From positions 124,001-188,000 of the forward strand of contig NZ_SNWH01000005.1 of assembly GCF_004361885.1 (NCBI RefSeq): a stretch of 64,000 nucleotides of DNA, written 5' to 3'. This stretch comes from Halomonas ventosae. Its GTDB lineage: Bacteria; Pseudomonadota; Gammaproteobacteria; Pseudomonadales; Halomonadaceae. Below are positions 4,413 to 64,000 of the stretch, one piece after another (position 1 is the first letter of the stretch; every line of letters starts with the position of its first letter). The position numbers and the translations under genes are program-made. Below the pieces are notes generated by a model, which was given only the letters and a program-made list of their open reading frames with translations, was not told the DNA's origin and did no database searches.

Positions 4413-5936
4413 CTAACGCTGGCAGGGGTCGTCGATGATGGCGGTCTCCCGCGGCCGAAGGCGTCGCGACAGGGCGTCCACGGCGATATTGAGGGCCGCG
4501 GTGACCAGCAGCAGGAAGAAGGCCACATCGAACAGCAGGTACTCGAAGTTCGCGTCGATGTAGTAGCCCAGGGTGGCCACCCCCAGCATGCCCAGGATCG
4601 CCGTCTCGCGCAGGATCACCTCGGCCCGGTAGTAGAGCAGGGCCAGCATGCCAGGATAGAGCCGCGGCAGCAGCTCGTAGGCCAGCCGGCCCGTGGCGTT
4701 CACTCCCGGCATGCCGGGAGTGATGGCGTCCGCGTGGCGTGCCACCAGGAAGGCGATCAGTGCGCCGTTGTGCAGCGCCAGCGCCAGCCAGGCGGGCAGC
4801 AGCGACGGCCCCAGCAGCAGCAGGAAAAAGAAGGCCAGCATCAGTTCCGGCGTCGAGCGTAGGAAGACCAGCAGGCCCCGCCCGGCCAGCCGGGTCAGCG
4901 GGTTGCCGAAGTGGCGGCAGGCCAGGGGCCACAGCGCCAGGGCGACCAGCAGCGCCCCCACACTGCCCAGCAGGCCAAGCAGCAAGGTGTTGCCGATGGC
5001 CGGGCCCAGGTCGGGGATGCGCGCCAGCCACTCGATGAGGCCGCGCCAGTCGCCCTCGAGCAGCGCCGGCGGCCAGATGTCCTGGCTGACGAAGCGCCAC
5101 AGGAGGCCGCCCTCCAGCGCCGGCCAGGGGCCCAGCAGCAAGGCGCCGCCCAGCGCCAGCAGCGGTATCAGCCGCCGGTGACTCCACCAGGGCAGGCTGG
5201 CGATCAGCAGATAGAACATCCACAGCAGCGCCCCCGCCTCGTGGTAGCGCCCCTCGCGGAAGGCGGTCTCGAGCTGAAAGCCCAGGGTCGGCAGGCCGAC
5301 GAAGCCCAGCAGCACGCTGGCGCGCAGCGCGCACTCGAAGCGATAGCGGGTGTAGGCGGCGAGTCGGGTCCAGGCCAGCGGCAGTTCGGCATAGACGAAG
5401 CGCGAGAGTCGCCCGATCCCCGGCGGCAGGGCGTCGCGCGGCGCGCCGGGTATTTGCTCGAGGATCTCGGCATAGACCTTGGCGAAGATGCCGGCATAGG
5501 GAATCACCAGGGCCATCAGGGCCGTAGCGGCGGAGAGGCCGAACACCTGCAGGAAGAGCAGCGCCCAGAACAGCTCGTGGATGGCGCGCACGAAGGCGCA
5601 GCCAGCGCGGATCAGCCGCGAGCGGGCGAACAGCAGGGCCAGCGGGAAGCCCAGCAGCATTCCGCCCAAGGTTCCCCACAGCGCCACGGCCACGGTCAGG
5701 CCCAGCGCCTCCAGCGGTGACTCCAGCGCCCCCCAGGCGGGCCAGGCCAGCCCGCGGGCCATGCGAGCGAGCTCCGCCCAGGGGTCGCGGGTCAGCACCG
5801 CCAGGTCGGCGAAGGGCACCAGCAGCACCGCCAGCGCCACCAGGGCCAGGCTGTGACGCGCCAGGCGCACGCCGGGGCTCCGGCCTTCCAGCCAGCCCGG
5901 CCGGGGCGCCTGGGTGCGAGAGTGGGCCTGGGTCAT
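4413..5936 (-). CDS. Fused double permease of a phosphonate/selenate-type ABC importer
   Basis: A 507-residue inner-membrane protein with two complete binding-protein-dependent permease domains. The first ends near residue 260 and the second spans about 290-505, each with the EAA-like loop of PhnE permeases (EILEQIPGAPRDA; NATGRLAYELLPRLYPG). In many operons these are two PhnE polypeptides; here they are one chain. Its ATG overlaps the stop of the upstream ATPase gene (ATGA), so it is the last gene of a tightly coupled binding protein-ATPase-permease operon. Substrate assignment follows the binding protein: phosphonate-like oxyanions, or possibly selenate. PhnE is the nearest name but I leave the symbol empty because of the fusion. 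Confidence 0.85.
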   Translation of the reverse strand: MTQAHSRTQAPRPGWLEGRSPGVRLARHSLALVALAVLLVPFADLAVLTRDPWAELARMARGLAWPAWGALESPLEALGLTVAVALWGTLGGMLLGFPLALLFARSRLIRAGCAFVRAIHELFWALLFLQVFGLSAATALMALVIPYAGIFAKVYAEILEQIPGAPRDALPPGIGRLSRFVYAELPLAWTRLAAYTRYRFECALRASVLLGFVGLPTLGFQLETAFREGRYHEAGALLWMFYLLIASLPWWSHRRLIPLLALGGALLLGPWPALEGGLLWRFVSQDIWPPALLEGDWRGLIEWLARIPDLGPAIGNTLLLGLLGSVGALLVALALWPLACRHFGNPLTRLAGRGLLVFLRSTPELMLAFFFLLLLGPSLLPAWLALALHNGALIAFLVARHADAITPGMPGVNATGRLAYELLPRLYPGMLALLYYRAEVILRETAILGMLGVATLGYYIDANFEYLLFDVAFFLLLVTAALNIAVDALSRRLRPRETAIIDDPCQR

Positions 5937-16906: not shown

Positions 16907-18793
16907 TCAGGCGTCGTCTTCGTGAATCTGGCCCTCCTGGCGCGCCAGGTCGTCGGCCTCGAAGCCGCCGAACACCCCAGCGCCCTGCTCGCCGCGCATG
17001 GCCAGGTGGCGAAAGCCACCGAACAGCTCGCGTCCCAGGCCCACGTGGTAGTGGTCCAGATCGCCAATCCGCAGCTCGCGCTCGGCCCACTCATGGGCGT
17101 CGATCTTGACCTCCAGGCTGCCGTGGTCGGCGTCCAGGCGCACGATGTCGCCGTCGCGCAGCTTGGCGAGCGCTCCGCCGTCCAGCGCCTCGGGGCTGAT
17201 GTGGATGGCTGCCGGCACCTTGCCGGAGGCGCCGGACATGCGCCCGTCGGTGACCAGTGCCACCTGGTAGCCGCGGTCCTGCAGCACGCCGAGGTAGGGG
17301 GTCAGCTTGTGCAGTTCCGGCATGCCGTTGGCCTTGGGGCCCTGGAAGCGCACCACGGCGATCACGTCTCGGTCCAGCTCGCCGGCCTCGAAGGCGCCCT
17401 TGAGCTCGTTCTGGTCCTCGAAGATGCGCACCGGCGCCTCCACCAGGCGGTGCTCGGGCTTGACCGCCGAGACCTTGATCACCCCGCGGCCCAGGTTGCC
17501 GTCAAGCACGGTGAGCCCGCCGGTGGGCGCGAAGGGCTCGGCCACGCCGCGCAGCACCTCGGTGTCAAGGCTCTGTTCCGGTCCCTCGCGCCATACCAGC
17601 TTGCTCTCCTCCAAGAAGGGCTCTCGGGTGTAGGCGGTGAGATCGGTGCCGAACACCGTGGGGATATCGCCGTGGATCAGGCCGGCCCCCAGCAGTTCAC
17701 GAAACAGGTAGCTCATGCCGCCGGCAGCCTGGAAGTGGTTGATGTCGGCCTGGCCGTTGGGATAGACCTGCATCAGGCTCGGCGTCACCGCGGAGAGGTC
17801 GGTGAAATCTTCCCAGGTGAGGGTCAGCCCGGCAGCGGCGGCCATGGCCACCAGGTGCAGGGTGTGGTTGGTCGAGCCGCCGGAGGCGAGCAGACCGACG
17901 ACGGCATTGACGATGGCACGCTCGTCGATCTGCTGGTAGAAGGGGCGGTAGTCGCCGCCGGGCTCGGTATTGCGGATCGTCTGCTCGGTGGCGTAGCGGG
18001 TCAGCGCCTCGCGCATCTCGGTGCCGGGGTTGACGAAGGAGGTGCCCGGCAGGTGCAGGCCCATCATCTCCATCATCAGCTGGTTGGAGTTGGCGGTGCC
18101 GTAGAAAGTGCAGGTGCCGGGGCTATGGTAGGACTGCGATTCCGCTTCCAGCAGGTCTGCGCGGCTCGCCTTGCCCTCGGCGAACAGCTGGCGGATGCGC
18201 GCCTTCTCCTTATTGGGCAGGCCACTGGGCATGGGGCCTGCCGGCACGAACATCGCCGGCAGGTGGCCGAAGCGCGCCGCGGCGATGAACAGCCCCGGGA
18301 CGATCTTGTCGCACACGCCGAGGTAGAGGGCGGCGTCGAACATGTTGTGGGAGAGCCCCACGGCGGTGGCCATGGCGATCACATCGCGGGAGAACAGCGA
18401 CAGCTCCATGCCCGGCTGGCCCTGGGTCACGCCGTCGCACATCGCCGGCACGCCACCGGCGAACTGGGCGGTGGAGCCCATGGCGCGGGCGGCGGCCTTG
18501 ATGGTCTCGGGAAAGCTCTCCAACGGCTGGTGGGCCGAGAGCATGTCGTTATAGGCGGAGATGATGCCGAGGTTGGCCGAATTCATCAGCTTCAGCGAAT
18601 TCTTGTCCGTCTCGCCACAGGCCGCGAAGCCGTGGGCCAGATTGCCGCAGCTGAGCTCGCCGCGATGCACGCCCCGGCGGTGCTGGTCGGCCATGCGGCG
18701 CTCGTAGAGGGCGCGACGCTCGGCGGAGCGTTGCCGAATGCGGCGGCTGACGTTGGCAACGGTGGGGTTGAGGGCGGGGGTCGTGCTGGCCAT
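16907..18793 (-). CDS. edd: Phosphogluconate dehydratase
   Basis: Dehydrates 6-phosphogluconate to KDPG, the defining Entner-Doudoroff step; an iron-sulfur IlvD/Edd-family enzyme. The 628-residue length is normal. Visible marks include [11 protein letters not shown]-type N-terminal sequence ([13 protein letters not shown]), the CDG and GVCDKIVPG cysteine motifs, [12 protein letters not shown] and the C-terminal [21 protein letters not shown] precedes the ATG. First gene of the edd-glk-mutarotase-kinase run; two TGTAA-type palindromes in its upstream region are candidate HexR sites. Confidence 0.96.
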
Positions 18794-28114: not shown

Positions 28115-29122
28115 ATGAGCATGCTTGAACAGGACCTTCAGGATGTGAATCTGGCGTCCGTCGACGAGGCGGACGAGGACGCGGTCGAGACGCCGGATGA
28201 GCGAGAGGACATTGATGACGAAGAGGCCGTGATCAACGATGAGGAAGCCTTCGAGAAGGCTCTGAATCGCGAGGATCGCCATCGTCGCCAGAGCCTCGAT
28301 GCCACGCAGATCTACCTCAACGAGATCGGCTTCTCGCCATTGCTGACGCCGCAAGAAGAGGTCTACTACGGTCGCCTGGCGCGCCAGGGCGACCCGGTTG
28401 GCCGCTCGCGGATGATCGAATCCAACCTGCGTCTGGTAGTAAAGATCGCCCGGCGCTATCTCAACCGTGGCCTGACCCTGCTCGACCTGATCGAGGAGGG
28501 CAACCTGGGTCTGATCCGCGCGGTCGAGAAGTTCGACCCCGAGCGCGGCTTTCGCTTCTCCACCTACGCCACCTGGTGGATTCGCCAGACCATCGAGCGG
28601 GCGTTGATGAACCAGACCCGCACCATCCGTCTGCCGATCCATGTGGTCAAGGAACTCAACATCTACTTGCGGGCGGCCCGTGAGTTGACCCAGAAGCTCG
28701 ACCACGAGGCCACGGCCGAGGAGGTCGCCGACTACCTCGACAAGCCAGTGGAGACCGTCAAGAAGATGATGGGCCTCAACGAGCGGGTCTCATCGGTCGA
28801 CTACCCGATGGGCAGCGAGAACGACAAGCCGCTGATTGAGACCCTGGCCGACGACAATGACCAGGGCCCGGAGTCGACCCTGGTGGATGGCGATGTGCGC
28901 CAGCATGTCGACGAATGGCTGGCCGAACTCACCGAAAAGCAGATGGAGGTAGTGGTGCGCCGCTTCGGGCTGCGCGGCCATGAGGCCGCGACCCTTGAGC
29001 ACGTTGGCGAGGAGATCGGCCTGACGCGCGAGCGGGTTCGTCAGATCCAGGTAGAAGCCCTGAAGAAGCTGCGCCGCATGCTCGATAAGCAGGGCCTCTC
29101 GCTGGATGCCATCTTCGAATGA
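28115..29122 (+). CDS. rpoS: RNA polymerase sigma factor RpoS
   Basis: Stationary-phase/general stress sigma factor, including osmotic stress. A 335-residue sigma-70 family protein with an acidic N-terminal segment, region 2 ([49 protein letters not shown]) and region 4 helix-turn-helix ([20 protein letters not shown]). The ATG at 28115 is 5 bases after GGGGAGG. The 139 bases after nlpD hold no gene and form part of a long leader; I see no strong promoter there apart from an AT-rich TAATAATAAT near 28025-28034. Confidence 0.96.
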
Positions 29123-45169: not shown

Positions 45170-46545
45170 TGGCAGATGATCGCAACATGCCCACGCAGGG
45201 TGAAATCGACGTCACGCCCAGAAAGCCCGCCACCCTCGAGGGCGAGTACTCGGAGCAACTGCCGACCAGCGACAAGGGCTACAAGCGCCTGGGGCTGATC
45301 ATCCTGCTGATCGCCTTTGGCGGCTTCGGCATCTGGGCGATGACAGCCTCCCTGGCCATCGCCGTGGTGGCGCCCGGCAGCGTCTCCATGGAGTCCTTCA
45401 AGCGTACCGTGCAGCATCTGGAAGGCGGCATCGTGGAAGAGCTGCTCGTCGAGGATGGCGACAAGGTGCAGGCAGGCGACCCCTTGATCGTCCTCAGCGA
45501 CACCCAGGCCCTGGCGCAGCTGGATATCGCCAAGTCGCAGTACCTGATCAACCGTGCCATGGAGATTCGCCTGCTCGCCGAGCAGAAGGGCGCCGATAAA
45601 CTGGTGTTCCCCGAGGACTTGCTCAACAGCGATCTCCAGCGGGTTCAACAGGTGCTGGCCGTGCAGCGCAGCCTGTTCGTGTCGCGTCGTGAATCCCTGC
45701 AGGGGGCGCTGGAATCATTGGATGAGCAGATCAACCAGATGCGCGAGCAGATCGACGGCCTCGAGTCCCAGATCGCCATCAACCGCCGTCGTGTCAGTTC
45801 GCTCAAGGCCGAGGCACAAGACTTCCGCTCGCTGTTCCGCGAAGGGCTGGGCGACAACCAGCGCCTGCGTGAACTCGAGCGCCAGGTGCTGGAATACGAA
45901 GGGCGCATCGCCGAGCATCGCTCCCAGATCGCCCGCCTCAAGTCGCAGATCAGCGAGAACAAGCTCCAGAAGGAAGTGCGCCGCCAGGAGTTCCAATCCG
46001 AGGTGGGCGAACAGCTGCGCGATGCCCAGTCACAGATTGCCGAGGCCGAGGAGCGCATCACCTCGCTCAGCGACCAGGTCAATCGCACCACCATCAAGGC
46101 GCCAGTCGCCGGTACCGTGGTCGGCCTGAAGGTGCATACCAAGGGAGCCGTGATCCGCGGAGGCGACCCCATCATGGATATCGTGCCGTCGGGAGATGGT
46201 TTCGTCGTCGAGGCGCGCATCCCCAATCGCGATATCGACAACATCTATATCGGCCAGCCGGCAACGATTCGCTTCTCGGCCTTCAACCAGCGCCTGACCA
46301 ACGAGATCGCCGGCGAGGTGATCCACGTCAGCGCCGACAGCTTCGAGGACGAAGCCACCGGGCAGATGTACTACAAGGCGCGCGTTCGGGTAACCGAAGA
46401 AGGCGAAAAGGACATGACCGAGCAGATGCAGCTGCTCTCCGGCATGCCCGCGGAAGTGCTCATCAAAACCGGCGAGCGCACCTTCGCCAGCTACATTGCC
46501 AAGCCGATCACCGACATGCTGGCGCGCGCCATGCGGGAGGCGTAA
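45169..46545 (+). CDS. Type I secretion membrane fusion protein (HlyD/PrtE/RsaE-like)
   Basis: A 458-residue periplasmic adaptor with one N-terminal transmembrane helix (about 41-63), a biotinyl-lipoyl-like segment (VQHLEGGIVEELLVEDGDKVQAGD), a long coiled coil (about 150-300) and a C-terminal beta-barrel region with IKAPVAGTVVGLKVHT. It bridges the ABC exporter and the TolC-like channel. TAATG overlaps on both sides tie the three genes into one translational unit. Confidence 0.93.
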   Translation: MADDRNMPTQGEIDVTPRKPATLEGEYSEQLPTSDKGYKRLGLIILLIAFGGFGIWAMTASLAIAVVAPGSVSMESFKRTVQHLEGGIVEELLVEDGDKVQAGDPLIVLSDTQALAQLDIAKSQYLINRAMEIRLLAEQKGADKLVFPEDLLNSDLQRVQQVLAVQRSLFVSRRESLQGALESLDEQINQMREQIDGLESQIAINRRRVSSLKAEAQDFRSLFREGLGDNQRLRELERQVLEYEGRIAEHRSQIARLKSQISENKLQKEVRRQEFQSEVGEQLRDAQSQIAEAEERITSLSDQVNRTTIKAPVAGTVVGLKVHTKGAVIRGGDPIMDIVPSGDGFVVEARIPNRDIDNIYIGQPATIRFSAFNQRLTNEIAGEVIHVSADSFEDEATGQMYYKARVRVTEEGEKDMTEQMQLLSGMPAEVLIKTGERTFASYIAKPITDMLARAMREA

Positions 46546-57479: not shown

Positions 57480-58935
57480 TGCCGTATCCATGGCAGCTCG
57501 GGCCGATTCCGCCCAGCCCGAGCCGTCGGCCGCCGTTGCGCCGGAAACCGTGATCCGGCTGGTCGATGTCGCCAAATACTACCAGGTCTACGCCCAGCCC
57601 CGTGACCGTCTCAAGCAGTTCGTCATGCCTCGTGTGCATCGCCTGCTGGGCAAGGCGGCGCGCCACTATGGCCGGGAGTTCCGTGCGCTCGACGGGATCA
57701 GCTTTGAGGTGGCCAGAGGCGAGACGGTTGGCATCATCGGCCGTAACGGCTCGGGCAAATCGACCCTGCTGCAGATGATCTGCGGAACGCTCACGCCCAC
57801 CCATGGCGAGATTTACACCCAGGGGCGTGTTGCCGCGCTGCTGGAGCTCGGCGCCGGGTTCGACCCCGAGTTCACCGGGCGCGAAAACGTCTATATGAAC
57901 GCCTCGGTACTGGGCTTGAGCAAGGCGGAAATCGATGCTCGCCTGGCCGATATTCTGGCCTTCGCCGATATCGGCGAGTTCATCGACCAGCCCGTGAAGA
58001 CCTACTCCAGCGGCATGTATGTTCGGCTCGCTTTCGCCGTGATCGCCCACGTCGATGCCGACATCCTGGTGATCGACGAGGCCCTGGCCGTGGGGGATGC
58101 GTTCTTCGTGCAGAAGTGCATGCGCTTTTTGCGCCGCTTCATGCAGCACGGCACCGTGCTGTTCGTCAGCCACGACACCTCCGCCGTGCTCAACCTCTGC
58201 CAGCGGGCCATCTGGCTGGAAGGCGGGCAGGTCGTCGCAGAGGGCTCGCCCAAGAAAGTCGCCAGCGCCTACCTCAAGGCCTTCTTTGAAGGGCAACAGG
58301 GCGCCAGCGCCGACGTCGCCAGCGGCGACGCCGGCGACGCCGAGCAGAGCAGCCACTGCCCCGCACAAGCTCCGGTGATCCACCGCCTGACGCGTGACAT
58401 GCGCCAGGACCTGCTCAACGCCAGCGCCTACCGCAACGACCTGGAAATCTTCCAGTTCGACCCCGCCGCGGAAGGCTTCGGCAAGGGCGGCGCGCTGATC
58501 GAGGAGGTCAGCCTGCGCGACGCCGACGACCGAACGCTCACCTGGGTGGTCGGTGGCGAGGAGGTGACCCTCAGCATTCGTGCCCGGGTACACAGCGAGC
58601 AGCCGCTGATGCAGCCGATCCTGGGCTTTTACGTCAAGGATCGCCTGGGGCAGACGCTATTTGGCGACAACACCTTCCTGAGCTACCAGGACAGCCCCGT
58701 CACCACGCTACCCGGCGGAGTGCTGGAGGCGCGTTTCAGCTTTCGCATGCCCATCCTGCCCCAGGGTGACTACTCCATCAGCGCCGCCATCGCCGATGGC
58801 ACCCAGCACGACCACATTCAGCACCACTGGCTGCACGATGCGCTGTTCTTCAAATCCCACGCCAGCAGCCAGAGCCACGGCCTCGTCGGTATTCCCATGC
58901 ATCAGATCAGCCTTCAGGTAAAGCCTTCATCATGA
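57469..58935 (+). CDS. wzt: O-antigen ABC exporter ATPase with C-terminal glycan-binding domain (Wzt-like)
   Basis: A 488-residue ATPase: Walker A GRNGSGKST (about residues 92-100), LLELGAGFDPEFTGRENVY, the atypical signature YSSGMYVRLAFA and Walker B ILVIDEALAVGD. Residues from about 310 to 480 form an extra domain like the carbohydrate-binding tail of E. coli O9a Wzt, which recognises the chain's terminal modification before export. Because the next gene starts with a methyltransferase domain, a methylated chain end is a plausible export signal. ATG 57469 has AAGGGG upstream; its stop overlaps the next start (ATGA). Confidence 0.92.
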   Translation: MCSDAVSMAARADSAQPEPSAAVAPETVIRLVDVAKYYQVYAQPRDRLKQFVMPRVHRLLGKAARHYGREFRALDGISFEVARGETVGIIGRNGSGKSTLLQMICGTLTPTHGEIYTQGRVAALLELGAGFDPEFTGRENVYMNASVLGLSKAEIDARLADILAFADIGEFIDQPVKTYSSGMYVRLAFAVIAHVDADILVIDEALAVGDAFFVQKCMRFLRRFMQHGTVLFVSHDTSAVLNLCQRAIWLEGGQVVAEGSPKKVASAYLKAFFEGQQGASADVASGDAGDAEQSSHCPAQAPVIHRLTRDMRQDLLNASAYRNDLEIFQFDPAAEGFGKGGALIEEVSLRDADDRTLTWVVGGEEVTLSIRARVHSEQPLMQPILGFYVKDRLGQTLFGDNTFLSYQDSPVTTLPGGVLEARFSFRMPILPQGDYSISAAIADGTQHDHIQHHWLHDALFFKSHASSQSHGLVGIPMHQISLQVKPSS

Positions 58936-61900
58936 ACGAGCCAACTCGAACCGAGCTCCCGAAAACGGGGGAGCGCTTCCTGCCCCAGTTCGAGGGCGAT
59001 ATCGTTGCCGAGCACTACCATCGCTACCTGTTCGCCCGGCGCTACGTGGCCGACAGGCGAGTCCTCGATATTGCCTGCGGCGAAGGCTACGGCAGCCACC
59101 TGCTGGCCGGCGTGGCGCAACACGTCATTGGCGTGGATATCGCCGCCGATGCCGTCGCCCACGCCACCCAGCACTACGCCCGCGACAACCTCGAGTATCG
59201 CCAGGGCGACTGCGCCGCCATTCCGCTGCCCGACGCCAGCGTCGACGTGGTCGTGAGTTTCGAGACCATCGAGCACCACGACCGGCACGCCGCCATGCTC
59301 AGCGAGATCAAGCGCGTGCTGCGCCCGCATGGCCTTTTGATCATTTCCAGCCCCGACAAGCGCGAATACAGCGACGTGCCCGGCTACGCCAACCCCTACC
59401 ACGTCAAGGAGCTCTATCGTGACGAGTTCGAGGCGCTGTTGGCACGCCACTTTGCGCGCCATGCGGTGGTCGGCCAGCGGGTGGTATACGCCTCGGCCAT
59501 CATCGACAGCGCTGCGCCCGAGCTGACCACCTACGACGCCAACGACCCGGAAGGCCGCTCCGGGCTGCCGCACCCCCTCTACCTGCTGGCCCTGGCCAGC
59601 GACGGCGAGCTGCCGGCAGGCTCCAGCAGCCTCTACCTGCATGGCGTCGAAAAGAGCGATGCGGCGCTTGAGCGCGAGGCCACCATCCAGGCCCGGGAGA
59701 TGGAGCTTGAGCAGCGTGGCGCCGCCGTGGCCGAGCGCGATGCATCGATCGCCATGCTCGAACAGCAGCTCAAGGCGCGCGTGCACGCGCATGCCATCCT
59801 GGCCAGCCATGCCCATGCGCCCACCTGGCTGTTCAAGCAGTTGCTCAGGCGTCTCAAGCGCCGCCTGGCCGAGTGGCGCGCTGGCCCCAGCGCCCGCTAC
59901 CGGATCGCCGCCAGCGGCTTGTTCGACCCGGCCTGGTACCTCAGCCACAATCCCGACGTGCAGAGCCGCCGGCTCGACCCCCTCGATCATTTTCTGCACC
60001 GCGGTGGCTTCGAGGGCCGCGACCCTTCGCCGCATTTCAATACCCTCGACTGGCTGTGCCAGCATCCCTGGCTGATCGAACAGCACCAGCATCCCCTGCT
60101 CCACTATCTCGACCACCAGCCTGCGAAAGCCGCCGAGGGGGCGTCGGACCAGAGCCGGGCGCCGGCGGCAGAAGGGGCGCTGTTCGAGCAGCTCTTCCAG
60201 GATGCGACCCAGGTAGCTCCGACCTATGTACCGCTGGACGACGCAAGCCTGCCCGAGCCACCGCAGATACGTGCCATCGCCTTCTACCTGCCCCAGTTCC
60301 ATCCCATCCCCGAAAACGACCGCTGGTGGGGCAAGGGCTTCACCGAGTGGACCAATGTCAGCAAGGCCGTGCCGCAGTTCATCGGCCACTACCAGCCCCG
60401 CCAGCCGGGCGAGCTGGGCTTCTACGACCTGCGCCTGCCCCAGGTGCAGGAGCGCCAGGTCGAGCTGGCACGCCAGCATGGGCTTGCCGCCTTCTGCTTC
60501 CACTACTACTGGTTCAGTGGCCGCAAGCGCCTGCTGGAGGCGCCCATTGACCAGTATGTGGCCAACCCCAACATCGATTTCCCCTTCTGCCTCTGCTGGG
60601 CCAACGAGAACTGGACGCGGCGCTGGGATGGTCAGGAAAACGACGTGCTCATCGAGCAGAAACATCAGCCCCAGGACGACCTCGAGTTCATCGAGGACGT
60701 TGCACCGCTGCTAGCCGACCCGCGCTACCTGCGCGTGGATGGCAAGCCGCTGCTGATCGTCTACCGGGTGGATATCCTGCCGGATGCACGCAAGACCGCC
60801 GAGACCTGGCGCCGCTACTGCCGCGAGCAGGGCATCGGCGAGCTGCACCTGGTAGCGGCGCAAAGCTTCGGCATCGGCGACCCGCGCCCCTACGGATTCG
60901 ATGCCGCCGTCGAGTTTCCGCCACACGACACCCACGCGCGGCGCATCGAAGAGCGCCTGGAGTTCATCAACCCCGATCATCAGGGGCAGGTGTACGACTA
61001 TTGCAGCCTGGTCGAGACCCAACTGGCCAAGCCCCCGGTCGACTACCTGCGCTACCGCACCGTTTTTCCCTCCTGGGATAACGAGGCGCGCAAGCCCGGA
61101 CGCGGCTTTATCTTCGCCGCTGCCACGCCGGGGCGCTACCAGCAGTGGCTGGCCGGTGCCTGCCGCGAAGCCAACGCCTTGCCGGAAGCGCAGCGGCTGG
61201 TCTTCATCAACGCCTGGAACGAATGGGCGGAAGGCGCCTATCTGGAGCCGGACCGCCGCTACGGCTACGCCTACCTGGCCGCCACGCGTAACGTCATGCA
61301 GCGCTATTGCGCGAGCGCCCTGCCGGCCCTGCCGGCACCGGGCTTTCCTGTTCCCCCCGAGCTGCACAACCTTAAGGCCCGGCACGCCACGGCCGTGGTG
61401 CTGCATCTCTACTACACCGAGCTGTGGGATGAGGTCACCGGCTACCTGGCCAACCTGGAGGATGCGTTCGACCTTTACGTCACCCTGCCGCCGGATGTCG
61501 AGACGCCCATCCGCGATACCATCCTCGCCTGGAAGCCGGATGCGCACCTGATACCCCTGCCCAACCATGGCCGTGACATCCTGCCTTTCCTGCGGGTCAT
61601 GAACGCCATCGCACCGTTGGGCTATCAGCAGGTTTGCAAGGTACACGCCAAGCGCTCCGTCCACCGTGGCGATGGCGACCGCTGGCGGCAGGCATTCTTC
61701 GGCCAGCTGCTCGGGTCGCGCCGGCAGGTGGCGGCCATTCTCGATGCCTTCGCTCGGCACCCCGAGCTGGGCATGGTCGGGCCGCATGGGCACTGGCTGG
61801 AATACCGCCTCTACTGGGGCGACCACCGGGGTGGCCCCGAAGGCATCCGCCGGCTGCTGGATACGTTGGGCGTGTCGCTGGCCCTGGAGGAGGTCCGCTT

Positions 61901-62270
61901 CTTCGCAGGCAGCATGTTCTGGTGCCGCCCCCAGGCCGTTGCCCCCCTGCTGGAGCAGCTCGCCCTCGACGACTTCGAAGAGGAGGCCGGCCAGACCGAC
62001 GGCACCCTGGCCCATGCACTGGAGCGCGTTTTCGCCGCGGTCTGCCAAGGTGCCGGCATGCGCGTTACCGACACCCAGGCGCCCGCTGCGGCCGAGGAGC
62101 CGCTGCCCGTTCACCCCTACCCCTTTGCCCATTCCAGGGTGCCGCTGGGGCATGCGCCAGCAGAAGAGGGCGCCCTCGATGCCCCCCGGCATCGCTTCAA
62201 GGGCTGGCTCATGCAGCGGGCGCAGCAGGCAAGGCGCCGGGCCGGTGCCCTCAAGCGCCGCCTGTCATGA
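58932..62270 (+). CDS. Methyltransferase - YLxxNPDV module - WbsX - RgpF-like multidomain glycan enzyme
   Basis: A 1112-residue cytoplasmic enzyme with four parts. Residues 1-250: SAM methyltransferase (motif I VLDIACGEGYG at 44-54). Residues about 255-300: coiled-coil linker (EREATIQAREMELEQRG). Residues 331-369: one copy of the YLxxNPDV module (FDPAWYLSHNPDV, then DPLDHF, then FEGRDP). Residues about 445-790: WbsX/GH99-like domain (AFYLPQFHPIPEND, NEWAEGAYLEPD). Residues about 818-1000: rhamnan-synthesis RgpF-like domain (VVLHLYYTELWDEV, CKVHAKRS). It likely builds and caps the O-chain exported by Wzm/Wzt. It overlaps wzt by ATGA. Confidence 0.9.
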   Translation: MNEPTRTELPKTGERFLPQFEGDIVAEHYHRYLFARRYVADRRVLDIACGEGYGSHLLAGVAQHVIGVDIAADAVAHATQHYARDNLEYRQGDCAAIPLPDASVDVVVSFETIEHHDRHAAMLSEIKRVLRPHGLLIISSPDKREYSDVPGYANPYHVKELYRDEFEALLARHFARHAVVGQRVVYASAIIDSAAPELTTYDANDPEGRSGLPHPLYLLALASDGELPAGSSSLYLHGVEKSDAALEREATIQAREMELEQRGAAVAERDASIAMLEQQLKARVHAHAILASHAHAPTWLFKQLLRRLKRRLAEWRAGPSARYRIAASGLFDPAWYLSHNPDVQSRRLDPLDHFLHRGGFEGRDPSPHFNTLDWLCQHPWLIEQHQHPLLHYLDHQPAKAAEGASDQSRAPAAEGALFEQLFQDATQVAPTYVPLDDASLPEPPQIRAIAFYLPQFHPIPENDRWWGKGFTEWTNVSKAVPQFIGHYQPRQPGELGFYDLRLPQVQERQVELARQHGLAAFCFHYYWFSGRKRLLEAPIDQYVANPNIDFPFCLCWANENWTRRWDGQENDVLIEQKHQPQDDLEFIEDVAPLLADPRYLRVDGKPLLIVYRVDILPDARKTAETWRRYCREQGIGELHLVAAQSFGIGDPRPYGFDAAVEFPPHDTHARRIEERLEFINPDHQGQVYDYCSLVETQLAKPPVDYLRYRTVFPSWDNEARKPGRGFIFAAATPGRYQQWLAGACREANALPEAQRLVFINAWNEWAEGAYLEPDRRYGYAYLAATRNVMQRYCASALPALPAPGFPVPPELHNLKARHATAVVLHLYYTELWDEVTGYLANLEDAFDLYVTLPPDVETPIRDTILAWKPDAHLIPLPNHGRDILPFLRVMNAIAPLGYQQVCKVHAKRSVHRGDGDRWRQAFFGQLLGSRRQVAAILDAFARHPELGMVGPHGHWLEYRLYWGDHRGGPEGIRRLLDTLGVSLALEEVRFFAGSMFWCRPQAVAPLLEQLALDDFEEEAGQTDGTLAHALERVFAAVCQGAGMRVTDTQAPAAAEEPLPVHPYPFAHSRVPLGHAPAEEGALDAPRHRFKGWLMQRAQQARRRAGALKRRLS

Positions 62271-62612
62271 GGCGACCCGTATGCAGCGAACACTGTTCAC
62301 GACCTGCCGCCAAAATACGTGCGGCATCGCTGAACAACACGAAAACTGATGTAGCGGGGGGTGAAAAGGGCTGCTACCATCGGCTCGAGTGAATCGCGCG
62401 ATTCACGGTAGGCGCCGAAGGCGGCCTTGATTTTTCCTTGCACGTGACGCTATCGTCGGAAGGGAGGCAAGGGTCGGTACAAGTGGGTTGCCTGCTTGCT
62501 TTGGCTTGATCTCTCAGCAAGGGATCCCCCCAGGGGTTGAGGATCGACCTGGCAATTCAAAGGGATGCCTGCCAGGCATCTTCACATATGCATATGTAAG
62601 GAGTGTACCTAC
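62271..62612 (+). promoter_or_regulatory. Gene-free leader of the S-layer-like gene with several palindromes
   Basis: 342 bases without a gene. They hold an 18-bp perfect palindrome GTGAATCGCGCGATTCAC (62389-62406), a hairpin GATGCCT-GCC-AGGCATC (62564-62580) and a 14-bp perfect palindrome ACATATGCATATGT (62584-62597) that abuts the AAGGAG ribosome site (62598-62603). No consensus sigma-70 promoter is obvious. A long structured 5' untranslated region is likely and would be in keeping with a stable, abundant mRNA. Confidence 0.6.
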
Positions 62613-64000
62613 ATGGCTATTAGCTTTAACGAAAATTTCTACCTGCAAGAAAAGCTCGCCCAACTGCAAAGCGCCGGTGAATCACTTTCCACCGTTGAGC
62701 AGGTAGCAGACGCGTTCACGGCCGCTGGCCTGACAGCCCAGGCGCACTATCAGGCGTACGGCGCTGCCGAAGGCCTGAACCCCAATGCCGACTTCGACAC
62801 CACCCTCTACCTGGATCAGAAGCTGGCTCAGCTTCAGGCCGCCGGCGAAACCCAGTTCCAGAGCCCCGGTGATGTCCTGGTGGCCCTGCAGGCTGCTGGC
62901 CTCTCGCCGCTGGAGCACTACAACCAGTACGGCGCCTTCGAAGCCCTGAGCCCCAACGCCAGCTTCAATGTTTCCGCCTACCTGCAAGACAAGCTGGCCC
63001 AGCTGCAGGCCGCCGGCGAGACTCAGTACCAGACCACCGAGGACGTCCTGAATGCCTTCCAGGCCGCCGGCCTCACCCCGCTGGAGCATTTCAACCAGTA
63101 CGGCCAGGCAGAAGGCCTGACCGCCAAGCCGGTCGTCGGCGGCACGCCGGGTGATACCTTCAGTCTCACTGCAGGTGATGACCAGTTCTTCGGTACTGAG
63201 AACAACGATACCTTCACTGCTGACGCTGGCACCCTGGGCGCTAACGACCAGCTGCTGGATCAGAACACTGAAGATAACGACACGCTGAATGCGGTTATCA
63301 CCAATGCCAACAAGACGGCTGGTGCGGCTACTCTGCTGAACATCGAGAACGTTAACCTCGACCTCGACGTGTTCACTGGTGCGGCTTTCAACGCTGACAA
63401 CACCACTGGCGCGACCATCACTGCTTCTAGCTCCAAGCTGGGCTTCAACGGTGAATTCCAAGTAACCAACACTGGCGATAACAACGTTACCGCTGGTGAA
63501 AATGTTACCGACCTGACAGTTTCTGACCTAGAAGCCGGTATGGTTGATGCGGGCGCTGCTGAAACTGTTGATGTAAACGTTTCCGCTGGCAACACTGCGA
63601 ACGTCACTGCTAATGGCGATGTTGCACTGGATGTTTCTGGCGCTACTGACCTAAATCTGACAGCGACTGCTGATACAGCTATCGACCTTACAGAAGCTGG
63701 TGTCGATACCATCGTTGGTACTGGCGAAGGTGCCATCACTCTGAACACCACTGTTACAGCTGCTAGTGGCGATGAAATTACTGGTATCGATACTGTTGTA
63801 ATCGGTTCTGGTTCTGGCGACGTTGACGCTTCAGATTTCGATGTTGCTACCATCGAAGTAGCTACTAACATGTCTGGTGACCTAACAGTTGCTGATGCCG
63901 CCAATGTTGAAGTAACCGAAGAACAGGTAGCAGGTCTGACTGTTTCTGGCTCTGCAGCGACTAACACTGCGACGGTATCTTCTGCCCTGTCGTCTGTTGG
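62613..64000 (+). CDS. S-layer-like RTX protein, N-terminal part (runs off the window)
   Basis: Open from ATG 62613 (AAGGAG 9 bases upstream) to the window end, at least 462 residues, no signal peptide. Residues 5-60, 61-117 and 118-170 are three copies of a module: F-YL-KLAQLQAAGE ... AAGL-PLEHYNQYG-EGL-PN, a longer relative of the 38-residue repeats at 48061. Then comes RTX-like AGDDQFFGTENNDTFTAD (about 187-204) and a Ser/Thr/Ala/Val/Gly/Asp-rich body resembling Caulobacter RsaA (NNDTF, then IENVNL-type segments). Likely type I cargo forming the surface layer. From about 63160 the codons switch to T-ending forms (GCT, GTT, ACT, GGT), a mark of very high expression. An adhesin is the alternative. 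Confidence 0.85.
   Translation, partial: MAISFNENFYLQEKLAQLQSAGESLSTVEQVADAFTAAGLTAQAHYQAYGAAEGLNPNADFDTTLYLDQKLAQLQAAGETQFQSPGDVLVALQAAGLSPLEHYNQYGAFEALSPNASFNVSAYLQDKLAQLQAAGETQYQTTEDVLNAFQAAGLTPLEHFNQYGQAEGLTAKPVVGGTPGDTFSLTAGDDQFFGTENNDTFTADAGTLGANDQLLDQNTEDNDTLNAVITNANKTAGAATLLNIENVNLDLDVFTGAAFNADNTTGATITASSSKLGFNGEFQVTNTGDNNVTAGENVTDLTVSDLEAGMVDAGAAETVDVNVSAGNTANVTANGDVALDVSGATDLNLTATADTAIDLTEAGVDTIVGTGEGAITLNTTVTAASGDEITGIDTVVIGSGSGDVDASDFDVATIEVATNMSGDLTVADAANVEVTEEQVAGLTVSGSAATNTATVSSALSSV

Follow-up and report, generated by a model that had tools for sequence, protein, structure and literature searches.

The leader of the S-layer gene slpA of Lactobacillus acidophilus is able to fold and may protect its mRNA, according to an excerpt of the published description (PMC6482533), and 5'-terminal stem-loops protect the ompA and papA messages of Escherichia coli, as indicated by titles in the reference list of PMC3997798. 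The leader analyzed here precedes a surface-layer-type gene of Halomonas ventosae, at the end of a 64,000-nucleotide stretch (hereafter, the window; G000:C5:124001-188000 in a 3.24-Mb genome). Like the slpA leader, as far as the excerpt describes it, this leader would be long and is predicted to be foldable, the likeness being one of description; like ompA and papA, as represented by those titles, it has a predicted stem within a few nucleotides of the putative 5' end. Unlike ompA and papA, the Halomonadaceae leader contains two further parts, a GC-rich hairpin and a box joined to the Shine-Dalgarno (SD) sequence. The S-layer genes vapA of Aeromonas and rsaA of Caulobacter reportedly also possess folded, protective leaders; to our knowledge, however, none of the slpA, vapA and rsaA leaders shows anything like the conserved, SD-fused box of the leader described here. 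A literature search that covered few subscription journals, and hence is weak evidence of absence, identified no recognizable paper on a Halomonadaceae S-layer leader. The folded, protective leader looks like a known kind of element, and the SD-fused, gene-specific box like a new variation on it.

The preferred interpretation, to which we assign a probability of about 0.48, is that the conserved leader acts as RNA, that is, as a stabilizing, ribosome-loading 5' UTR. Under this model, transcription would start near position 62387 from a promoter with the -10 element at 62375-62380, and the message would open with the stem-loop of an 18-bp palindrome, which, by analogy with the work on ompA in E. 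coli, should hinder RppH and RNase E. A structured middle part and a GC-rich hairpin would follow, and the leader would end in an AU-rich, sequence-conserved box, ACAUAUGCAUAUG, which is joined to the SD sequence and most likely serves for ribosome loading, the remainder of the leader being folded. It appears more likely that the palindromes act in the message (in its protection and in ribosome start) than as a repressor site.

The gene, its product and the leader

The relevant features of the window, all on the plus strand, are as follows.

45283-46539, plus strand: membrane-fusion protein of type I secretion (HlyD family; TIGR01843, 413.6 bits against a cut-off of 208.65; G000:C5:169283-170539)
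58932-62270, plus strand: upstream methyltransferase/WbsX/RgpF glycosyltransferase (Pfam)
62271-62612, plus strand: gene-free leader of the S-layer-like gene, 342 bases from the end of the upstream stop (62270) to the ATG
62375-62380, plus strand: putative -10 element TACCAT of promoter P1, preceded by TGC (which would make it an extended -10), with a predicted start at about 62387
62389-62406, plus strand: 18-bp perfect palindrome GTGAATCGCGCGATTCAC, read as a putative 5'-terminal mRNA stem-loop GUGAAUC-GCGC-GAUUCAC
62427-62456, plus strand: putative alternative promoter P2, TTGATT-N18-TATCGT, kept as TTGATT-N18-TAT[CT]GT in genome G296 and in Halomonas olivaria
62564-62580, plus strand: hairpin GATGCCT-GCC-AGGCATC, with a 7-bp stem and a 3-nt loop, upstream of the box
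62584-62597, plus strand: 14-bp perfect palindromic box ACATATGCATATGT, adjoining AAGGAG
62598-62603, plus strand: SD sequence AAGGAG, 9 nt before the ATG, aligned in 11 leaders
62613, plus strand: start codon ATG of the S-layer-like gene
62613-64000 and past the window end, plus strand: S-layer-like gene, 898 amino acids in the genome (L002:2614-5307)

A Pfam search identifies an RTX repeat (PF00353) at residues 758-791 of the S-layer-like protein with a score of 38.6 bits against a cut-off of 23, that is, near the C-terminus, as in RTX-type S-layer proteins secreted by type I systems; the C-terminus also weakly resembles serralysin-type proteins, with scores far under the NCBI cut-offs. The HlyD-family gene lies about 16 kb upstream of the S-layer-like gene and is not adjacent to it; the HlyD search, by which alone type I secretion was assigned, detects two TIGR01843 matches that exceed the cut-off, one elsewhere in the genome and one inside the window. 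The N-terminal triple repeat is predicted by AlphaFold to form nine helices (mean pLDDT 90); a Pfam search with this repeat returns no match, and a Foldseek search with the N-terminal domain no PDB fold at E<=0.001. It is perhaps an undescribed surface-protein domain. Relatives of the repeat (window positions 62613-63140; L075-L098) are listed in Desulfobacteraceae, Marichromatium, Microvirga and Caulobacteraceae.

The 'hauberk' S-layer protein of methanotrophs is reported to have a homolog in Halomonas salina at 48% (PMC11784148); the likeness of the methanotroph protein to the window protein is one of description. Like Caulobacter RsaA and the methanotroph S-layer proteins, the window protein bears RTX repeats, and a type I secretion gene is present in the window; unlike type I secreted S-layer proteins, it starts with a helical triple repeat that matches nothing in Pfam or PDB, and the secretion gene is remote. 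The best reading of these similarities is that the gene encodes a type-I-secreted, RTX S-layer-like protein, and 'S-layer-like' appears to be a fair label for a putative surface protein. The idea of a structured S-layer leader, proposed when the window was read from its sequence only, fits the conservation of the leader, the covariation among related leaders, the RTX protein and the type I secretion genes in the genome.

The glycosyltransferase neighbor is the same, by sequence, in H. olivaria and Chromohalobacter canadensis and, judging from C-termini compared by eye, in Modicisalibacter coralii, Kushneria aurantia and Halomonadaceae bacterium T82-2; in three loci (L070-L072), another gene is located between the glycosyltransferase and the S-layer-like gene or in place of the former. 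In the H. olivaria record, the upstream glycosyltransferase is split over several frames (L081, positions 1-2609), due to a frameshift or a sequencing fault. Downstream of the S-layer-like gene, at about L002 5356-5386, there is a terminator-like hairpin, CCCCCGACC...GGTCGGGGG, followed by T's, which suggests that the 3' end of the gene may be monocistronic.

The 342-base gene-free leader reported by the sequence-only reading is borne out, as are the positions of its 18-bp palindrome, hairpin with a 7-bp stem and 14-bp palindrome; the description of the last as ending one base before AAGGAG is correct in terms of coordinates (62597 versus 62598) but not as a gap, zero bases lying between the two. 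Among 5000 leaders simulated with a first-order Markov model of the same composition, a perfect palindrome of at least 14 bp is found in 116 and one of at least 18 bp in 10, and none of the 5000 contains an 18-bp together with a second 14-bp palindrome. The 18-mer is rare for a leader and the 14-mer, by count alone, unremarkable; the count is suggestive for the 18-mer only. Longer palindromes do occur in the window, e.g., a 24-bp perfect palindrome, TCACTCCCGGCATGCCGGGAGTGA, at 4700-4723, the longest one, and the 14-bp palindrome CCTGGCGCGCCAGG is present twice (16936-16949 and 28375-28388).

What raises both palindromes above chance is that they are conserved in relatives. Retention of chance features by common descent only is compatible with the frequency of such palindromes (12 of at least 14 bp, the 24-bp one included, in 64 kb) but is very unlikely given the pattern of conservation. 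Between two genera, the leader consists of six identical blocks of 13-20 bases amid diverged sequence: AAAAGGGCTGCTA, the 18-mer, CCTGCTTGCTTTG, CCCCCAGGGGTTGAGG, ACATATGCATATGTAAGGAG and GTACCTACATGGC are identical in the window, G296 and H. olivaria. In the comparison with H. olivaria, 178 of the 248 positions of the window leader from 62365 to 62612 are identical, including 18 of 18 in the 18-mer and 28 of 29 in 62584-62612, above the identity of the coding start (98 of 171 aligned columns for the first 150 coding bases).

Distribution of the box in Halomonadaceae

Searches were performed at three scales: a leader DNA search of 58 genomes, a protein search (E<=1e-10) of 195 genomes, and pattern and profile searches of 275 genomes of the family. 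Beyond the leader itself, the whole-leader DNA search detects only matches of 18-30 bp, which were treated as chance given that 15 such loci, viewed in context, look like coding sequence by eye; a plasmid search with the leader yields no match. The protein search identifies related N-termini in three genomes besides the window's own, and in each of the three, one leader shows the same letters before the SD sequence. None of the protein relatives found aligns past residue 228 of 898, and a class-level protein search recovers only the window's own genome among the 369 drawn.

The pattern GCATATGYANGGAG-N4-14-ATGGC, written from G000, G026 and G111, matches in 8 of the 275 family genomes, with no matches for the reversed control; all eight sites directly precede a gene of the same N-terminal protein family, and five of the eight genomes are new. 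A protein profile (E<=1e-15) detects the gene in 11 of the 275 genomes, representing 6 of 24 genera, most family genomes, also within the same genus, being devoid of it. In all 11 carriers, the box precedes the gene: the motif GCATATGYAAGGAG is exact in seven and altered in four (GCATATGCATGGAG in G026, GCATATGCTAGGAG in G132, GCACAAGCAAGGAG in Kushneria and GCATGTGTTAAGGAG in T82-2). Counting the two Chromohalobacter as one, and likewise G296 and H. olivaria, leaves nine lineages among the 11 carriers. The same leaders are found in named records, assigned to the genome identifiers by sequence, of C. canadensis, Chromohalobacter beijerinckii, Halomonas sp. McH1-25, the uncultured Halomonas 3-558-1-J, H. 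olivaria, M. coralii, K. aurantia and T82-2. Conservation of the palindromes in close relatives, on which the sequence-only reading had staked its proposal, is thus observed, for the box in six genera and for the 18-mer in three genomes.

The box is specific to this locus. A sequence profile of the box, which was built from the 11 carriers and hence recovers them by construction, has a single strong hit per carrier genome; the other 264 genomes yield only two hits, both weak (E 0.004 and 0.005), under filters that are strict and may miss weak sites elsewhere; one of the weak matches precedes an apparent citrate synthase gene (read by eye). In the five genomes searched, exact CATATGCATATG is present at the box alone, in G000, G296 and G299; its one-mismatch copies elsewhere outnumber the reversed control in G000, G296, G299 and G111. 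Among seven further family copies with a readable start in the carrier genomes, six lack the box (L050, L051, L062, L065, L066 and L067), and the second copy in McH1-25 (L053) has a related sequence, TATGCTAGGAG, in its place; for two more copies (L060 and L068), the start falls outside the stretch at hand. The 21 loci that a contig scan with an alignment of the protein gave outside the family include six with a readable start (L075, L076, L079, L083, L084 and L086), none of which has the box, and 15 in which a start could not be placed. Rather than accompanying the protein domain wherever it occurs, the box tracks a single locus within a single family. In G132, the ortholog (L025, reverse strand) contains in-frame stops, one of them early, and looks like a pseudogene, with the promoter and the box still present.

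The protein bodies at this locus vary, whereas the leader is retained. The persistence across six genera of one leader with an SD-fused box, attached to differing protein bodies, points to an expression-plus-anchor module, which would reside in halophiles of biotechnological use. Cells with an S-layer make its proteins in amounts that rank with those of their most abundant ones, and the leaders of S-layer genes are therefore natural high-expression modules.

The 18-bp palindrome and the start of the message

The putative -10 element of P1 adjoins the block AAAAGGGCTGCTA, which G296 and H. olivaria share without a change; of the six positions of the hexamer, four are identical. It aligns with the TAGCAT of a TTGCA[AT]-N17-TAGCAT arrangement that is present in seven other leaders, ends 230-290 nt before the ATG and is followed by G(T/C)G(A/T) 8-10 nt past the -10. 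A promoter scan of the leader reports no sigma-70 match, and P1 in the window is without a good -35. The GTGA of the 18-mer is located 8 nt past TACCAT in the window and 8 nt past TATGAT in G296 and H. olivaria, and the stem in the window would begin 2 nt from the predicted start.

The second candidate promoter, P2, is as well formed as P1 and would place the palindrome upstream of the start, at approximately -75 to -58, which is a class-I activator position. The 18-mer would then be a DNA operator for a dimeric regulator. This possibility, unlikely but deserving serious attention, is consistent with the retention of the P2 hexamers in three genomes and with the identity of all 18 bases in G296 and H. 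olivaria, a comparison that rests on two lineages: the conservation across two genera includes the loop and goes beyond the needs of a hairpin. An operator would be expected to recur in the genome or in related promoters. The 18-mer, however, is exact in only 3 of the 275 family genomes, with one copy in each and always in this leader, and its near-copies in these three genomes (up to 3 mismatches) number 5, against 8 for the reversed control. Moreover, its GTGA half is spaced from the -10 element like the arm of the leaders of a second group (group B). As for the SD-proximal box, for which the sequence-only reading had raised the operator idea, it would lie about 195-255 nt inside the predicted transcript, and for neither palindrome is that idea favored. 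A terminator role of the 18-mer was considered and dropped, the palindrome being absent from the terminator list of the scan.

A 5'-terminal stem-loop of the mRNA is tentatively favored over an operator, given the possible pairing of the corresponding arms in the related sequences. A downstream partner is available to the 5' arm, the clearest cases being GGTGAGAAC/GTTCTCACC in C. canadensis and GGTGAA/TTCACC in M. coralii. In a duplex test on eight leaders, from which the near-duplicates G296 and C. beijerinckii and the leader of 3-558-1-J, with no clear promoter, were left out, the summed duplex energy of the 5' arm is -80.0, compared to -56.5 +- 4.4 for shuffled sequences, none of 500 being as low. 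Singly, four of the eight are significant (G000, H. olivaria, C. canadensis and M. coralii); the values for the others are 0.268 for McH1-25, 0.222 for K. aurantia, 0.978 for T82-2 and 0.120 for G132, and for the first three of these, the strongest duplex forms with a partner other than the conserved TCAC arm. In 7 of 10 leaders, the minimum free energy fold of the first 110 nt has a 5'-terminal stem that includes the arm, the exceptions being C. canadensis, C. beijerinckii and K. aurantia; in G296 and H. olivaria, the arm was taken in this fold as GCGT at 6 nt, and in the duplex test, which of these two included only H. olivaria, as GTGA at 8. The pairing probability of the arm is mostly no better than in shuffles, exceeding most of them in G000, in G132 and, in part, in M. 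coralii, and the 3-558-1-J leader shows no clear P1 or 5' stem.

The middle of the leader and the Shine-Dalgarno-adjoining box

For the middle of the leader, RNAalifold predicts 39 base pairs in an alignment of seven group B leaders, of which 18, in four helices, were chosen for scoring and 21 (long-range, weak or box pairs) were omitted. In these 18 pairs, 89.7% of the cells are paired, and the covariation score is 0.320, compared to 0.188 +- 0.032 for shuffled alignments (0 of 500 as high) and 0.034-0.093 when the structure is slid along, although the score is favored by the derivation of the structure from the same alignment. In the window group of leaders, the hairpin 62564-62580 has the counterpart GGTGCC/GGCACC in G296 and H. 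olivaria: its stem persists, an A-U pair is replaced by G-C through a double change, and a loop-closing pair is lost. Compensatory change, for which the sequence-only reading had proposed that related leaders be compared, is thus evident in group B, whereas a single pair represents it in the window group. Other genera have a different GC-rich hairpin (GCGGY...RCCGC) in the same place; a stem is predicted there in 10 of the 11 leaders, 3-558-1-J being the exception, and the z values for all 11 lie between -0.3 and -3.0, with a mean of -1.8. A search of window positions 61900-63000 with the Rfam 15 covariance models gives no matches at E<=1. A conserved upstream mini-ORF through ATGCATATG was rejected because the frames and stops, inspected by eye, differ between species.

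The symmetry of the box is less stable than its letters. The longest perfect palindrome at the box is 14 bp in three leaders, 12 in five, 8 in one and 6 in two, so that eight of the 11 leaders reach 12 bp, and the center of symmetry shifts from TG/CA to CAT/ATG. In contrast to any one fixed palindrome, the sequence GCATATG, exact in 9 of the 11 leaders and 7 of the 9 lineages, appears to be the best-kept part. The exactness of this heptamer despite the changing symmetry, along with the single box site per genome, could reflect binding by a dedicated trans-acting factor that controls one mRNA, either a small RNA or an RNA-binding protein such as CsrA, which would bind at GGA. Every SD sequence contains GGA, however, known RNA families show no match, and the factor itself is only a candidate, which makes this explanation rather doubtful.

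The hairpin that the 14-bp palindrome had been suggested to form next to the ribosome-binding site is, by folding predictions, weakly supported at best. Folded alone as a fixed 14-nt segment, which cuts the shifted palindromes of the other species, the box yields 0 to -0.7 kcal/mol; with its flanks, the predicted energy of its self-fold lies between -1.1 and -5.0 kcal/mol (z values of -2.7 to +0.7, with a mean of -0.81 over 11 leaders), and within the full leader its probability of pairing with itself is 0.00-0.46. The box could nevertheless be a translation switch, folded by default and opened by a small RNA, a protein or heat, by one of two folds: a self-fold over part of the SD sequence (UCUU-ACAUA-UGCA-UAUGU-AGGA in the window) or a stem with the start region (AUGUA-A-GG with CC-UACAU). 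The predictions for the window group are compatible with this explanation. The self-fold reaches -3.9 kcal/mol in the window and -5.0 in G296 and H. olivaria (z from -1.5 to -2.7 in this group), and -3.8 in T82-2; the start-region stem of the window group reaches -7.9 and -8.4 kcal/mol, leaving the start codon mostly paired (unpaired 0.05-0.29 only); and a GYA...URC arrangement around the SD sequence co-varies between the window group and most of group B. This Y/R change, however, may be a single event, the self-fold z is above 0 in M. coralii and G132, and that of the start-region stem is close to 0 in Chromohalobacter, +1.05 in 3-558-1-J and -1.15 on average. Stems over the SD sequence or the AUG are predicted in the window group and weak or absent in the others, and a switch of this kind is not a probable function for the box as a whole.

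The preferred role in ribosome loading fits the predicted openness and the composition of this region. In each of the 11 leaders, the predicted openness of the box and the SD sequence together exceeds that of the remaining UTR (mean 0.45 versus 0.33, the length of the 3-558-1-J leader being set arbitrarily at 250 for this comparison), and their A+T content is 0.64 versus 0.45 for the rest of the leader; the openness of the SD sequence itself is only moderate. The box would represent a short sequence beside the SD, the letters of which seem to matter for the start of translation in folded leaders. Finally, the self-complementarity of at least 12 nt that is kept in 8 of the 11 leaders despite the moving center gives rise to a highly speculative idea, in our opinion the least probable of those considered here: two copies of the message might pair at the box beside the SD sequence, lowering initiation as the message accumulates. 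If true, such pairing would be a concentration-sensing feedback built into the S-layer mRNA, which is probably an abundant message.
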